Below, piece after piece: positions 4,355 to 16,325 of a DNA stretch of 27,308 bases. Position numbers and translations under genes: made by a program. Each line of letters begins with the position of its first letter. Position 1 is the stretch's first letter. The DNA comes from a virus. The notes below the pieces were generated by a model, which was given only the letters and a program-made list of their open reading frames with translations, was not told the origin of the DNA and ran no database searches. The stretch is from the IMG/VR virus record IMGVR_UViG_3300021197_000393, positions 1-27,308 of that record. The stretch is one strand, 5' to 3'.

Positions 4355-5032
4355 TTATGCAATCTCATCATATTGTAATGATAAATTAGCTGAAAAAGAC
4401 CTTCTTTCACCTTCACCATAAAACGGATATGCTGTATGAGAAAGCGATGCTGGGAATACATATAAATCGCCTACTTCTGGTCTTCTTGTATATTGACAGG
4501 GTGAACATAATGTATTTGTACCAGAAAAAAAATCAATATAGCCTTCAGTTGTATGATTTTTTTTAGTGTTTTTAAAATTTTTTCTACCTATTGATGGTGG
4601 TACTTTTGTGTATATAATACAAGAAAAATCACAACCAGTATGAATATGAAGTGGGTTATAATCATTTTTAAAACTACGAACAAACCAAGAAGCAGCTACA
4701 AAAAGTTTACTAAGGTTTACACCCGGAACTTGTCCACTTTCCATACCACCTCGTTCTCGCACATCGTTTTCTTGTAAGAATTTACAAGCATCAAATAATA
4801 TTTTCAATAAATCCTTAAATGAATCTTCACTTAAATCACAATTTAATTCTTCAGCAACATGACCAACTAAATCTTGTGATTTGTCATGTTCTTTCCTATA
4901 CATATCTCCTTGTGCAATTACATTATCACAATACCTATTCATATTATCAATAATGTGCATTGGTAATTTACTTACAATCATTCTAGGACCAAAAGGTCTT
5001 TCTAAACGTATCTCTACTTCATTATTATACAT
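4355..5032 (-). CDS. 2OG-Fe(II) oxygenase, 225 aa
   Basis: ATG 5032 is chosen over an upstream ATG at 5068 because GGAG lies eight bases before it; the longer form would also overlap the preceding gene by 32 bases. The C-terminal half looks like a jelly-roll dioxygenase of the 2OG-FeII_Oxy_5 kind. It shows NPLHIHTG with H129 and H131, then D135, then GDLYVFPASLSHTAYPF with distal H199, then GERRSFSANL with R210/R211 for 2-oxoglutarate. The first metal triplet is ambiguous (H129 or H131 with D135). The N-terminal 110 residues are helical and unassigned. It lies four bases after a second, different oxygenase and downstream of a collagen-like fibre. Substrate unknown. Confidence 0.82.
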   Translation of the reverse strand: MYNNEVEIRLERPFGPRMIVSKLPMHIIDNMNRYCDNVIAQGDMYRKEHDKSQDLVGHVAEELNCDLSEDSFKDLLKILFDACKFLQENDVRERGGMESGQVPGVNLSKLFVAASWFVRSFKNDYNPLHIHTGCDFSCIIYTKVPPSIGRKNFKNTKKNHTTEGYIDFFSGTNTLCSPCQYTRRPEVGDLYVFPASLSHTAYPFYGEGERRSFSANLSLQYDEIA

Positions 5033-5036
5033 ATAA

Positions 5037-5570
5037 TTATCTCCACTTAGCACCTTCAAACCACGCAACCAATGATTTTCTAATACCCTTAGTGACTGGC
5101 GAAACTTTATGTTGTAAATAACTTGGAAAAATTAATATAGTTCCTTTATCTTTTAAGTTCTTATTTGGTGATTGACATTCAGTAAAGGAAAATTCTCCAC
5201 CTTCATATTCACTAGGATCTGAAAGTTGAACAGTTACGGATAATTTTCTATCTAATCCATCTTCTCTATTCCAATCAATATCATGGTGTAAATTATAATG
5301 CCCACCTTCTGTGGATAAATATTCTGTATATTGAATATCTGCTTTTTTATATAAATCTACTTTAAAAACAGTTCTATTTACTAAATCAACATAATCATAT
5401 AATAAATTTAAAACTCGTTTGTCTGCTATCCATGAAACACGACTCACTCTTACGTCTTTACCACTATGATTAAATGTTGATGCTTGTTCTGTCTTATCTG
5501 CAATTGTAATTATTTGATTAATTATTTGTTCATCAAGAACTTTATGAAACATTTGCCAATTTTGTCGCAT
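5037..5570 (-). CDS. Prolyl-4-hydroxylase-like 2OG-Fe(II) oxygenase, 177 aa
   Basis: Residues 80-172 show the full P4H/PKHD-type pattern. YNLHHDIDW gives the HxD pair H95 and D97, EYEGGEFSF is the conserved strand, LIFPSYLQHKV gives distal H154, and R164 ten residues later should bind 2-oxoglutarate. All expected catalytic residues are present, so it should be active. The 177-aa length is typical of single-domain phage P4H-like enzymes. The stop is followed four bases later by a second oxygenase whose ribosome site lies in this gene. Possible substrates are the collagen-like fibre encoded 0.5-2 kb upstream, another virion protein or a host protein; none is shown. Confidence 0.88.
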   Translation of the reverse strand: MRQNWQMFHKVLDEQIINQIITIADKTEQASTFNHSGKDVRVSRVSWIADKRVLNLLYDYVDLVNRTVFKVDLYKKADIQYTEYLSTEGGHYNLHHDIDWNREDGLDRKLSVTVQLSDPSEYEGGEFSFTECQSPNKNLKDKGTILIFPSYLQHKVSPVTKGIRKSLVAWFEGAKWR

Positions 5571-5642
5571 ATATTAGTTTCTCCCCTTTAAACGATGGTA
5601 GCTTTGTAGTTGGTTTATCTAAAGACACAATATCTTTAATAC

Positions 5643-6050
5643 TTAGCTTGGTCTAGTTGGGTACGTCACATTACTTGGAAAACCTGATTGTTGTGGAATA
5701 TTTAAAAGGTCTGTCCTATATTGTTTCCAAGCATTTTGTTTTTCAGTTGTTAAATCTGCCCATAATAGCCCATTACTTACAATAGGGTCAACATCTATTC
5801 TTAGAAGATTATCTCTCTCATTGCGAACACGTAATTCTGCTATAGTATTTTTTTCATCTGCTGTTAGTTCTTTGTAATTTGAACCAATTAATTTTAATAA
5901 TTCAGAATTATCTACTGTATTATCTGGATCATCTGTATGTAAAATATATGTGATCCATCCATATTCTGGATGATTTATTTCTAATTCAAATTCTGTATTA
6001 TCATCATTAGTAGAAACTGCATTTCTAATTTCTGTTATTGTAACACTCAT
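5643..6050 (-). CDS. Tail fibre assembly-type protein, 135 aa
   Basis: The C-terminal 50 residues carry the signature I associate with the Phage_tail_APC family: LLWADLTTEKQNAWKQYR, then LLNIPQQSGFP and a final PTRPS. It directly follows the collagen-like tail fibre gene, the usual place for a fibre chaperone or a small fibre-tip partner. AAGGAG precedes ATG 6050 by about eleven bases. The N-terminal half (residues 1-60) is a beta-rich acidic segment. It probably binds the fibre C-terminus during trimerisation. The family call is fairly sure, the exact role less so. Confidence 0.75.
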   Translation of the reverse strand: MSVTITEIRNAVSTNDDNTEFELEINHPEYGWITYILHTDDPDNTVDNSELLKLIGSNYKELTADEKNTIAELRVRNERDNLLRIDVDPIVSNGLLWADLTTEKQNAWKQYRTDLLNIPQQSGFPSNVTYPTRPS

Positions 6051-6065
6051 ATTATTAAATCTCCT

Positions 6066-7688
6066 TTATGAAATTCTAACACATAAACTGGAAACAGAAG
6101 TGCTAAAGATTGCTCCCATAACTCTCCATGTACCAGAAGGTCTAGTGCCAGATGATGTTGTACCACTAAATGAACAAAACAATAATCCTGTATTGTTTCC
6201 ATTTTGTGAAAACGTACCACCCGGACTGATTGTTGTTTGATATTGATTATTTATAGCTCCATAAGAACCAACTGTATTTATTGTACTATTAGGATTACCA
6301 TCAGGACCTGTAGGACCTGTTGGACCTGTTGGACCTGTACCTCCTGCTGATCCTGTTGGACCTGCCGGACCCGTAGGACCTGTAGGACCTGTTGGACCTG
6401 TAGAGCCATTACTTCCATTATTTCCTGCAGGACCTGTTGGACCTGTTGGTCCGGTAGGACCTGCTAAAGATGCATTTGTAATTGTTCCCTTTACCCATGC
6501 TGACGCAGTGGTATCATAAACTGCAAGTAAGTCTGCTCCTTGAAAAGATGTAGTTGTACTAAGACCAGTTAAAGAAGAACTTACATTCGCTGTATCAGTA
6601 ACATCTGCACTTGCTTCAACACCATCTAGTTTAGTACCATCTGTAGCAACATCTCGACCATCTACAGTTCCACCTACCACAACGTTTCCTGTTAAGGTAA
6701 CATTTCTAAGTGATGCCACATCTTTATTTGAATCTACTGTAACTACTTTACTTGCTACAACTGTACCTACAGATGCACCTGTGTCACTGTAGTTAAGTTC
6801 TGCCGCTGTAGCACTAACTGTTGTACCATTTATAGATAAGGCATCTGTTTCTAAAGTACCATTAACATCTATATCACCTTCAAGGTCAATATCACTATTT
6901 GCAACTATATTACCTGTAACAGTCAAGTTTCCAGCTATAGTTGGATTATTCTCTATTTTTGCACCTGTTACAGCATCGTCAACAATAGAAGCAGTGACTA
7001 CAGCATTTGCAGCTAACTCATCTGCTCCTACAGCATCGTCTGCTAACATAGAGTTTACTACCTTTGTAGCACCAATTGTAGTTACTCCACCGTTTGTCAT
7101 TGTTACATCGCCTGATAATGCTGCCGCTGTAAAACCTGTTCCATCACCTATGAGTAACTGTGTGTCTCCAACTGCTTTTGCAGAAACAACACCTGAACTA
7201 TTAGCATCCCTAACTAGCACTGAATTTGCACCTTGGTTTGCTATCTTTGCTAACGTAACCTGTGCGTCTGCAATGTGAGCAGTATCAATAGAACCATCTA
7301 CGTAGTGTTCTGAATTAATTGAGTCATCAGCTATCTTTGTACCATCAACAATGTCAGCGGCTAAGTGTGCTCTATCAATAGAGCCATCTACATATTGGTC
7401 ACTATTTATAGAATTAGCAGCCATCTTCGCAACAGTAATGTTAGCATCTGCTATTTTAGCTGTGGTGACGTTGGCATCCGTTATCTTAGCTGTAGTCACT
7501 GCATCGTCAGCTAAACCTGCTGTAGCAATGAGTGGTCCTTCGCCTGTTGTTCCATCATGTGAGTGTCCACTACTACCATTAAAGGCAGATTGAACTGCAT
7601 CAAACTCACCATCGAGGTCTGATGCGTTAATAACGTTACCATCAGCTATATTGTTTGATGAATCGTTACGAGTATATCCTGTTCCCAT
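6066..7688 (-). CDS. Collagen-like tail fibre protein, 540 aa
   Basis: The N-terminus contains [12 protein letters not shown] near residues 42-53, common in phage fibre attachment domains. Residues about 55-250 hold repeated short beta turns (DANVTTAKI and similar) including a duplicated block ending YVDGSID, as in beta-helical fibre shafts. Residues about 250-400 resemble structural beta-repeat stems ([20 protein letters not shown]). A run of 19 uninterrupted Gly-X-Y triplets follows (bases 6291-6461). A 74-residue C-terminal tip, ending [10 protein letters not shown] and CVRIS, probably trimerises and binds receptor. AGGAG precedes the start. The assembly protein and two dioxygenases lie just downstream. 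Confidence 0.9.
6291..6461 (-). repeat. Collagen Gly-X-Y tract, 19 triplets
   Basis: Nineteen consecutive Gly-X-Y triplets lie within the tail fibre gene, mostly GPT and GPA. Thirteen have proline in X, one (GNP) has proline in Y. The DNA shows it as near-tandem nine-base repeats, so slippage could change its length. A triple helix here would make a stiff rod before the receptor-binding tip. Confidence 0.93.
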
Positions 7689-7690
7689 TT

Positions 7691-9217
7691 TTATCTCCTA
7701 GCGTTAGTAATATACTGCAGGGTAGCAGCGTCTATGGTAAATGTAGTACTTACATTTTCTTCGTTGGTTTCGTATATAAGCGATGCAGTAAAACCTGAAC
7801 CTATTGTCTGCACTTCATAATAAGTTTGTTGTTTACCACCAAATGTAGATGTTCCAAAAGTTCCTGAACCGTATGTGAAAGTGCCTGAAGCATCACTTGA
7901 AAACTCTATCACATCAGGTTGAATAGAATTTATTTGGTCAAAATCAAACTTAAGTGATTTCTTGAGTCCAAACTGACCATTAACATCTAAATACGTTGTA
8001 CCCTTATATATTGTCTTACGAACCTTTGGGTCTCCTAGAGGTATAAAAGGTGTAGCAAATGTTGCAGGTATATTTCTTCCATCTAAAGTATTTCCCTGTT
8101 CCATTCTGTATATATACCCATCAGTAGCACCAAAGTATATAAATTCAGTACGACCAATATACTCACTAAATGTTACAAAGGCATTGAAACCACGTAAGTC
8201 ATTAAAAGATATTCCATCTTCTAATTGAGTTGCGGCAATTCCTTTAGCCGCATCATTCGTGAATCCTGAATTATATCCAAATATTCTATATTGACTTTTC
8301 TCACGAATAATTGTACTACTAAAACCATTAGGACTACTATTTACTAAATCTAATACTTCAGCCTGTATTGTTTTTGATATAGTTGCAAGATTAAAGTCAC
8401 CTATCTTCTCAGTGGCTGAAAATAAACGAAGTCCATCAGGTCCTAAGAATATAATATCACCACCTATCTCTTGTATCGTATCTTCTGCAATACAACCTAA
8501 ATCACGAGAAACAGGTTTTAGTTGAAAGTCTGCTACACTATTACCATTAAGTATATTTATACTATTTTCGCTAAATATTATTAGTTGGTCACGAAACACA
8601 ATTAATCCTGTAATTGTATCTGTTACATTAATTATACCACCACCGTTAGCAATTGTCAAGTCATTATCTTTATAAGGTGCAGAAAAAACTATTTTTTTCC
8701 CATTACCAAAAAATATGTGGTTTTTAAAGTTTACTATAAAACTTGCACCTGATACATCAGATGGTAAAGAACTTAATTGTTCAAACGTACTTCCATTAAA
8801 TCTATATGGTTTACCTGTTCCATCAACAAGCATAAGTTTTTCTGTACCATCAAAGTCGTACTTTAAAAATCTTACTTTACCTGCACCACCTACTGTAACA
8901 CCTGCACTGTTGTAAGTTGCATTGTCACTTATCTGTGTCCATCCTGAACCACTAGACCTAAATAAATCATTACCTCTTACAGCATATACATGATTACTAT
9001 AACTGTGTATGCCTCTTAGGACACCTGTGTTTGGTACAGTATTTGAATCAAATTTAGAATATCCTTCTATTCTTCGGTATCCACCAAATATAGAAGGCTC
9101 AAAGTTACGTAATATACGTGCAGAACCGGGTGCTTGAAAACCTTGTTGATAAGGTGAAATATTTGTTATCAAGCCACCTTTAAATTCAAATGAGTGGGTT
9201 TGCCATGCGTCTGCCAT
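7691..9217 (-). CDS. Probable tail hub/stabilisation protein, 508 aa
   Basis: The protein is beta-rich with repeated blades of a kind that fits a beta-propeller (for example [18 protein letters not shown] near residue 75 and [18 protein letters not shown] near residue 125). Its N-terminus ([20 protein letters not shown], about 12-31) is one I associate with marine-phage hub proteins; P22 gp10-like stabilisation proteins also begin with such a segment. Near residue 450 it has a [13 protein letters not shown] motif like one in the repeat protein encoded at 10.3-11.5 kb. It sits between the adaptor gene and the tail fibre, fitting a tail tube or hub plug. A promoter is embedded at 8631-8659. Exact homology is unproven. 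Confidence 0.72.
8631..8659 (-). promoter_or_regulatory. Perfect sigma70-type promoter inside the tail hub gene
   Basis: On the minus strand TTGACA (8659-8654) is separated by exactly 17 bases from TATAAT (8636-8631), and TGG directly before the -10 box adds an extended -10. Start of transcription is expected near 8624. It lies within coding sequence and would raise expression of the tail fibre, assembly protein and oxygenase genes downstream. Confidence 0.65.
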
Positions 9218-14810: not shown

Positions 14811-16325
14811 TTAACGTGAAGCTAATCCACCTTGCTTCATCTTTTTAGTTTTCTTTTTCTTCTTAGGTATTAAACCACCTACTGCTGTAGATATGTCACT
14901 GCCGAAACCTGTATTTGAGTCATAGTCATCGCTTTTACTATATCCACCATCATCACTGCCACCCATAGATTGACCTGCTTCTCTACCTGTTATTCTACCT
15001 TCTTTTTCAGCTTTTTCTTGGGCTGCTTTGTTTTTAGCTATTCTTTCTCTAGCTCTTTTTTGTTCTTTGAATGACAGACTAATCTGACGTTGTTTCTTTT
15101 CTTCTTCTTTCTTTTCTTTGTCTAGTCTATCTTGTTCTGCTGCTTTAGCAATGTCACTTGCCTTTAAACCTAATTGATAGTTTTCTATTCCACCACCTGT
15201 TCTAATACCTTCATCTATACTTCTTACTTGTGCTCTTGTTAAATCATCAACTCTTGCAACTTCAGGGTCTTTAACTTTTGCATCCTTTAATGCTAAGTCT
15301 ATATCAAATATATTTTGTGCTTTTTGTTTGCTTAAAAAGGTAGTTGCTGTCTTAGACTTTTTTATTGCGGCATTAAGTTTATCGTACCTAGGTGTCTTTA
15401 TTCCTAATTTCTTTCCGAGTTCAGCAATAGCTACTGCCTTTAAACCTTTGACTTTACCAAGTTGAGCTAGTTGACCTGTTTTTTGTGTTTTAATTGCTTC
15501 AGCAACTTTGGGAGTAGCAATTTGAAAGTTTCTTTGACCTGTAGCTTTATAGTTGTCTAAACTTTGTAAACCTACTGTTCCATCAAAGTTATATTGAACA
15601 GCATATTCAACATCACCTATTGTAGTTCTAGCTCCACCCAAATCTCCAGTTGGGTCATCATTATCATTATTGTCATCTTGTTGTTGTTGCGTACCACCTG
15701 ATTGCTTCTCTTCTTTTACAGGCTCTTCTACAGCTTCTGCTTGAGGCACGAAACCTTTTGGTACAGGATATATAGTATTTCCTATTGACCCATCTGCATT
15801 TATAAGATGTGGTATCATACGAACTTGTTTTGTTTGTTCGTTGTAGTATCTAACGTTTTCAACTTCTGGTACATTAGGTGTGACTAAATTGCCGAAATTT
15901 CCCGGTGCATAAACTTCTTGTTGTCCTTCAATAACTCCACCTGTATTATACTCTAAATCATCTTCTGTGTCAAGGTCTGATTCATCAAAAGGTAAGTCTT
16001 CTGTGTCAAGGTCTGTTTCATCAAAAGGTAAATCATCAGGCATAGTAGCTTCTTCGCTATTACCCATTTGACCCATCTCTTCCATAGTCTTTAAGCCTTG
16101 TTTAGCTTGTTGTCGCATCTTCATAAGTTTTTCAAGACCTATATATCTAACAACATCAGCAGGAAATACAAACTCCCCTTCACTTAATTGTGCAGGTATA
16201 TCATCTCTAACTTCTTCTCGTGTAGAACCCGGGGGTACATCATTGCCTGACACTTCGTCAACCATACCACCTTCATCTTTGAGACCACCATCCTCAAACA
16301 TTTCCATCTGTTCACGTAATGCCAT
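14811..16325 (-). CDS. Portal-adjacent virion-associated protein, 504 aa
   Basis: The N-terminus MEMFEDGGLKDEGGMVDEVS (7-26), then DDIPAQLSEGEFVFPADVVR (about 42-61), is a signature I associate with a conserved protein encoded after the portal in many marine and other phages; its function is not established. Residues about 98-125 contain a tandem 12-residue duplication rich in Asp. The middle is low-complexity, about 385-430 is a Lys/Glu/Arg coiled coil, and the C-terminus is very basic, ending KKMKQGGLASR. Acidic head and basic tail suggest an internal or assembly protein. A perfect promoter lies inside the gene at 15945-15973. Confidence 0.75.
   Translation of the reverse strand: MALREQMEMFEDGGLKDEGGMVDEVSGNDVPPGSTREEVRDDIPAQLSEGEFVFPADVVRYIGLEKLMKMRQQAKQGLKTMEEMGQMGNSEEATMPDDLPFDETDLDTEDLPFDESDLDTEDDLEYNTGGVIEGQQEVYAPGNFGNLVTPNVPEVENVRYYNEQTKQVRMIPHLINADGSIGNTIYPVPKGFVPQAEAVEEPVKEEKQSGGTQQQQDDNNDNDDPTGDLGGARTTIGDVEYAVQYNFDGTVGLQSLDNYKATGQRNFQIATPKVAEAIKTQKTGQLAQLGKVKGLKAVAIAELGKKLGIKTPRYDKLNAAIKKSKTATTFLSKQKAQNIFDIDLALKDAKVKDPEVARVDDLTRAQVRSIDEGIRTGGGIENYQLGLKASDIAKAAEQDRLDKEKKEEEKKQRQISLSFKEQKRARERIAKNKAAQEKAEKEGRITGREAGQSMGGSDDGGYSKSDDYDSNTGFGSDISTAVGGLIPKKKKKTKKMKQGGLASR
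15945..15973 (-). promoter_or_regulatory. Perfect sigma70-type promoter inside the 504-aa gene
   Basis: On the minus strand TTGACA (15973-15968), a 17-base spacer and TATAAT (15950-15945) match consensus at all 12 positions. The codons involved read Leu-Asp-Thr through Tyr-Asn. It points toward the scaffold and capsid genes, with expected start near 15938. The -35 box lies in a duplicated 36-base unit; the second copy (16004-16009) has no -10 partner. Confidence 0.6.
15961..16032 (-). repeat. Two-copy 36-bp in-frame tandem repeat
   Basis: Units 15961-15996 and 15997-16032 differ at only two bases. They encode 12-residue Asp-rich copies around DLPFDE(T/S)DLDTED in the 504-aa protein. The near identity indicates a recent duplication. 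The downstream unit supplies the -35 box of a perfect promoter. Confidence 0.92.

Follow-up and report, generated by a model that had tools for sequence, protein, structure and literature searches.

The window analysed here is the whole stretch of a complete IMG/VR record (IMGVR_UViG_3300021197_000393, 27,308 bp), and its minus strand carries a compact module in which a tail protein is followed by a collagen-like tail fibre, a fibre assembly chaperone, a prolyl 4-hydroxylase (P4H)-like enzyme and a second 2-oxoglutarate (2OG)-Fe(II) oxygenase. It agrees with a first-pass annotation of the same DNA, which placed the P4H-like enzyme two genes downstream of the fibre and another oxygenase behind it. 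The features are as follows.

7691-9217, minus strand: tail protein, directly preceding the fibre gene
6066-7688, minus strand: collagen-like tail fibre of 540 amino acids (phrog_892 and other tail fibre families, Pfam Collagen)
about 6291-6461, minus strand: 19 Gly-X-Y triplets of the fibre (amino acids 410-466), mostly GPT, the proposed hydroxylation target
6066-6290, minus strand: C-terminal fibre domain of the VGSYxA...SGTWRxMG type (domain hidden Markov model, HMM)
5643-6050, minus strand: tail fibre assembly chaperone (Phage_tail_APC; PF16778, 6e-11; phrog_4628, 5e-22)
5037-5570, minus strand: P4H-like 2OG-Fe(II) oxygenase of 177 amino acids (PF13640 above its cut-off, E 6e-15; phrog_61)
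4355-5068, minus strand: second 2OG-Fe(II) oxygenase (PF13759/phrog_81)

The collagen tract consists of 19 consecutive and uninterrupted Gly-X-Y triplets, among them 10 GPT, 2 GPA and 1 GPD, and both the triplet count and a Pfam Collagen match (E 1.1e-7, 31.9 bits against a cut-off of 27.2) confirm the tract as first annotated. The recount of its 14 prolines also agrees with the annotation, 13 being in X and a single one, in a GNP triplet, in Y. At the DNA level, Tandem Repeats Finder detects a 9-nt unit that recurs about 18 times at 6303-6463. A protein is called Gly-X-Y here when it has a run of 6 or more triplets, and the fibre tract is far beyond chance because the same test is positive upstream of only 5 of 36 control chaperone genes, namely those whose loci have neither a P4H gene nor the PLOD-like gene described below. 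The C-terminal fibre domain is likely a tip or trimerisation domain, and its HMM matches fibres both with and without Gly-X-Y repeats.

The P4H-like enzyme retains, as had been noted, all of its catalytic residues, that is, the HxD...H iron triad and the basic 2OG-binding residue (H95, D97, H154 and R164), and these are invariant in an alignment of 37 sequences, where they are numbered H94, D96, H153 and R163. An AlphaFold model (predicted local distance difference test, pLDDT, 94.3) predicts that the enzyme is a double-stranded beta-helix fold closest to the prolyl hydroxylases. The top structural matches of the model are mostly prolyl hydroxylases with Z scores of 16-19, including P. putida P4H, PHD2, an algal P4H with a Ser-Pro peptide and vCPH of PBCV-1, and the P. 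putida P4H-EF-Tu complex ranks first among them. By sequence, the PBCV-1 P4H gives a weak profile match to the window enzyme. The 177 residues constitute the catalytic domain alone, without the separate peptide-substrate-binding domain of the animal collagen P4H (C-P4H) alpha subunit.

Viral loci (designated L with a number) were gathered via the P4H, the second oxygenase, the chaperone and the upstream tail protein, and none of them was picked for collagen; many of the viral records are fragments. The P4H subfamily was delimited at 255 HMM bits or more, at a natural gap in the scores (264 vs 244). Among non-redundant loci, a Gly-X-Y protein is encoded within 6 kb upstream in all 30 subfamily loci with at least 3 kb of upstream sequence, and upstream in 34 of the 35 with at least 2 kb, where L102 is the exception. 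When the C-terminal fibre domain is held the same, a P4H or PLOD-like enzyme lies downstream of 26/30 fibres with Gly-X-Y repeats vs 1/37 fibres without them, and the sole exception among the 37 (L149) is a split-gene artefact with a 30-triplet tract in the adjoining open reading frame (ORF). Three of the Gly-X-Y fibres that have no enzyme downstream (L223, L236 and L242) have tracts made up mostly of GAT, GPQ and GST triplets, without a PF13640 gene anywhere in their records; the fourth (L160) is a second fibre located after the P4H. The P4H subfamily is near-obligately associated with Gly-X-Y fibres, and the link between P4H and fibre proposed at first is borne out by the 30 subfamily loci and by the matched comparison. 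The loci of the linked tracts form 7 gene-content clusters. After these tracts, 8 unrelated C-terminal families occur, which weakens a link via one particular fibre gene, though the segment immediately before the collagen tract is common to all linked fibres.

The association does not extend to oxygenases in general. The opposite outcome named in the first-pass annotation, that oxygenases are equally common beside fibres lacking Gly-X-Y repeats, clearly fails for the P4H subfamily, but other 2OG oxygenases do follow such fibres, so the link can be claimed for one P4H subfamily and not for 'oxygenases'. The comparison matched on the C-terminal fibre domain likewise rejects the notion of any oxygenase near any fibre. 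The second oxygenase of the window had been regarded as linked to the collagen fibre as well, and this was not sustained: only 1 of 13 relatives is Gly-X-Y-linked, that one being the window itself, and it was rejected as a part of the collagen system. The suggested co-occurrence across phages stands for the P4H subfamily and not for the second oxygenase. The latter has H141, H143 and H211 conserved across 22 sequences and likely starts at ATG 5032, just after the P4H stop codon, and not at TTG 5068. In Pelagibacter phage HTVC008M (L142), several annotated oxygenase/dioxygenase genes occur in a short stretch together with a tryptophan halogenase.

The window is an HMO-2011-type marine phage, since its terminase is 80-87% identical to those of Puniceispirillum phage HMO-2011 and Roseobacter phages CRP-1 and CRP-345 and its structural genes are similar in order to those of HMO-2011-type phages. 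The fibre module of cultured HMO-2011 differs from that of the window, no oxygenase is annotated within the genome stretches viewed of CRP-1 and CRP-345, and no P4H relative above 50% identity from cultured phages is present among the GenBank phage matches listed. The module found in the window is also present in locus L004. In three near-identical phages (L001, L002 and L005), the first 245 fibre residues are 92-93% identical to those of the window fibre, then the fibres diverge to a different, collagen-free tip, and these phages have neither a collagen tract nor the chaperone nor a member of this P4H subfamily but carry other oxygenases. Tract, chaperone and P4H thus move as a block. In these HMO-2011-type relatives, the collagen-free tips are followed by two or more different 2OG oxygenases (L001:7292-9244 and L005:14226-16783), which suggests other oxygenase-modified tips. 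In addition, a metagenome-assembled genome of Erythrobacter (L552) has a related P4H (1637-2176) directly after a collagen-like fragment (2-1555) with 100 Gly-X-Y triplets.

A further enzyme, present in relatives and not in the window, is a PLOD-like protein of about 600 amino acids composed of GT25/COLGALT-like, GT_PLOD and 2OG lysyl-hydroxylase-like domains (carriers: L086:9379-11136, L284, L285, L295, L301, L302, L309 and L566:3546-5444). It adjoins collagen-like fibres rich in GQK/GEK triplets. The L086 protein has a GT_PLOD domain at 1e-43, and the PLOD-like model best matches full-length human LH3, then mimivirus R699 and L230 and then human COLGALT1; the structure of Bacillus anthracis P4H is also among its matches. 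Directly downstream in the same L086 cassette lies an FkbM-type methyltransferase (PF05050, L086:11129-11677), which could further modify the fibre glycan.

The residues of the fibre tracts follow the enzyme content of the loci. P4H-only loci have GPT-dominated tracts, in which X is 67% Pro and Y is 60% Thr, while Pro occupies 2% of Y positions and Lys none. Lysine in Y is found in 20/20 P4H loci with the PLOD-like enzyme vs 0/28 without it. Likewise, Pro in X occurs in 19/19 PLOD-like loci with P4H, and in the five PLOD-like loci without a neighbouring P4H it amounts to 0% in three, 5% in L465 and 38% in L296, the last of which has a P4H-family gene elsewhere in the same genome. Tracts without P4H (GAT, GST) have threonine in Y just as often. 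Because Thr in Y stays and Pro in X is usually lost where P4H is missing, proline and not threonine is indicated as the target of the enzyme.

The fibre is probably hydroxylated by the phage that encodes it, in a way similar to collagen in animals. We consider it likely, with good though not complete confidence, that fibre, chaperone and P4H constitute an exchangeable module for host recognition, with the P4H hydroxylating the X-prolines of the co-encoded collagen-like fibre stalk. The substrate would be the X-position proline of GPT (and GPA/GPQ) triplets, and the reaction would take place inside the host cell, most likely before or during trimerisation aided by the neighbouring chaperone. 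Hydroxylation may then stabilise or modify the collagen stalk, a putative triple helix, that presents the C-terminal tip, with a possible effect on host binding. Gly-Hyp-Thr (Hyp, hydroxyproline) peptides reportedly form triple helices and Gly-Pro-Thr peptides do not, so that X-hydroxylation of GPT would have a direct structural purpose. The first-pass annotation had cautioned that prolines in X speak against P4H action; the positions were correct, but every P4H-linked tract has prolines in X, so this is no argument against hydroxylation.

Several points weigh against the hydroxylation of the fibre by its neighbouring enzyme. Animal P4H prefers proline in Y, and the closest solved relatives of the window P4H by sequence are PKHD-type enzymes such as PiuC. 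One P4H locus with 2.7 kb upstream (L102) has no Gly-X-Y tract there, and P4H relatives on SAR116 chromosomes have no collagen neighbour. Moreover, the genes of the cassette are co-inherited and supported independent origins are few, so the Fisher values of the 2x2 tests overstate independence. On the chaperone tree there are 2-4 supported independent changes, with which a sign test cannot reach significance, and on the P4H tree Lys in Y and the PLOD-like enzyme change seven times, always together, with just 2 of these changes on well-supported branches. Tree-based sign tests were set aside as proof because of these low numbers, even though concordance is without exception wherever both traits differ. 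When tracts were sampled from the general virome by DNA pattern alone, a linked P4H was found in 8/115 (GPT)3 tracts vs 1/92 GAT-only tracts (p 0.045), a difference that is not significant among loci with 2.5 kb downstream, and a GPT tract was rejected as a sufficient predictor of P4H. Since most (GPT)3 collagens are without a linked P4H, the enzyme needs collagen and not the reverse. One locus found by DNA pattern and seemingly enzyme-free (L393) carries the two enzymes immediately upstream of the stretch initially sampled. Several of the SAR116 relatives lie behind a Pro-Thr repeat protein: in L549:6877-7935 and L556:6985-7935, a Pro-Thr-rich protein with E(V/A)PTVD(T/I)NEAIASADE repeats is followed by a related P4H (about 46% identity), and this protein is possibly another repeat substrate.

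Among the rival explanations, the one that survives best, improbable as it is, takes the P4H as a hitchhiker in the fibre module whose substrate is some other protein, for instance one of the host. It agrees with the co-inheritance of the cassette, with the SAR116 relatives and with the top structural match, given that P. putida P4H acts on EF-Tu, but it does not account for an enzyme that, with the C-terminal fibre domain constant, occurs almost only alongside a collagen tract, is kept across 8 unrelated C-terminal families and is tracked by the Pro and Lys content of the tracts. Still less probable is a target other than proline, either the Y-threonine, modified for example in preparation for glycosylation, or a residue of the C-terminal domain. 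The dominance of Thr in Y in P4H-linked tracts led the first-pass annotation to raise threonine as an alternative, and other 2OG oxygenases do follow collagen-free fibres; threonine is nevertheless disfavoured by its persistence in tracts without P4H and by the absence of Pro in X from most PLOD-like loci without P4H, and the C-terminal domain by the diversity of the families that follow linked tracts. Least probable, and very unlikely, is that the oxygenases are auxiliary metabolic genes altering host 2-oxoglutarate/nitrogen signalling or repairing nucleic acid: cyanophages widely encode homologues of 31-42% identity, frequently more than one in a genome, roles in 2-oxoglutarate signalling or DNA repair have been put forward for cyanophage 2OG oxygenases (PMC3037559) and the second oxygenase is without a collagen link, but neither the location within the fibre module nor the residue tracking is explained.

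Beyond the hydroxylation of X-prolines in the window fibre, a wider proposal is favoured with less assurance: tailed phages may modify the collagen of their tail fibres by an animal-like pathway, in which P4H acts on GPT X-prolines and, in relatives, a COLGALT/LH3-like glucosyltransferase/lysyl hydroxylase fusion hydroxylates and glycosylates Y-lysines, enzymes and residues being gained and lost together. Similar systems are known in other settings. PBCV-1 vCPH (PDB 5c5t) is likewise a single-domain viral P4H and shares the fold of the window enzyme (Z 17.9 and 22% identity), but it comes from a virus that infects a eukaryotic alga and not from a tailed phage, its substrates are proline-rich repeat proteins and it has no tail-fibre cassette. 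Collagen hydroxylation in this chlorovirus was already known, as PMC9301287 states in citing Eriksson 1999, and so was that in mimivirus (PMC9546862), whose L230 (lysyl hydroxylase/glucosyltransferase) and R699 (glucosyltransferase) provide virus-encoded collagen modification and are both matched by the phage PLOD-like enzyme. Mimivirus, however, is a giant amoeba virus and its system acts on lysine, whereas the window has the P4H part alone. Bacillus anthracis P4H is a bacterial enzyme found with collagen-like exosporium proteins, in a spore system and not a phage, and hydroxylates collagen-like peptides at X too, with Y favoured (PMC8968730). Prophage collagen-like proteins of pathogenic E. 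coli are phage-type with a collagen stalk that is Pro-rich at X, but unlike the window they are without a hydroxylase (PMC3368898); in the same paper bacteria and viruses are said to lack prolyl hydroxylases for collagen, and the general description of collagens from prokaryotes and phages is that they are not hydroxylated (PMC3368898, PMC8968730). P4H genes have been catalogued in marine viromes, where viral use of prolyl 4-hydroxylase 'remains cryptic', and a study of viral P4HA 'auxiliary metabolic genes' raised tail-fibre collagen as a possible context of P4H in viral contigs, with no linkage or substrate test (PMC9301287). In the open-access literature searched, tailed-phage cassettes that join collagen fibres with prolyl/lysyl hydroxylases are not reported, and such coupling appears to be new there.

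The compact cassette of substrate, chaperone and enzyme makes the cryptic viral use of P4H directly testable and may be a source of small, bacterially expressed enzymes for modifying collagen prolines and, in relatives, for the corresponding lysyl and glycosyl modifications. If the proposal is true, phages tune their receptor-binding fibres through post-translational modification, and animals and giant viruses are far from the only groups in which collagen modification arose or to which it spread. Elsewhere in the window, two near-identical 36-bp tandem copies at 15961-16031 lie within an acidic part of a 504-amino-acid ORF (14811-16325).

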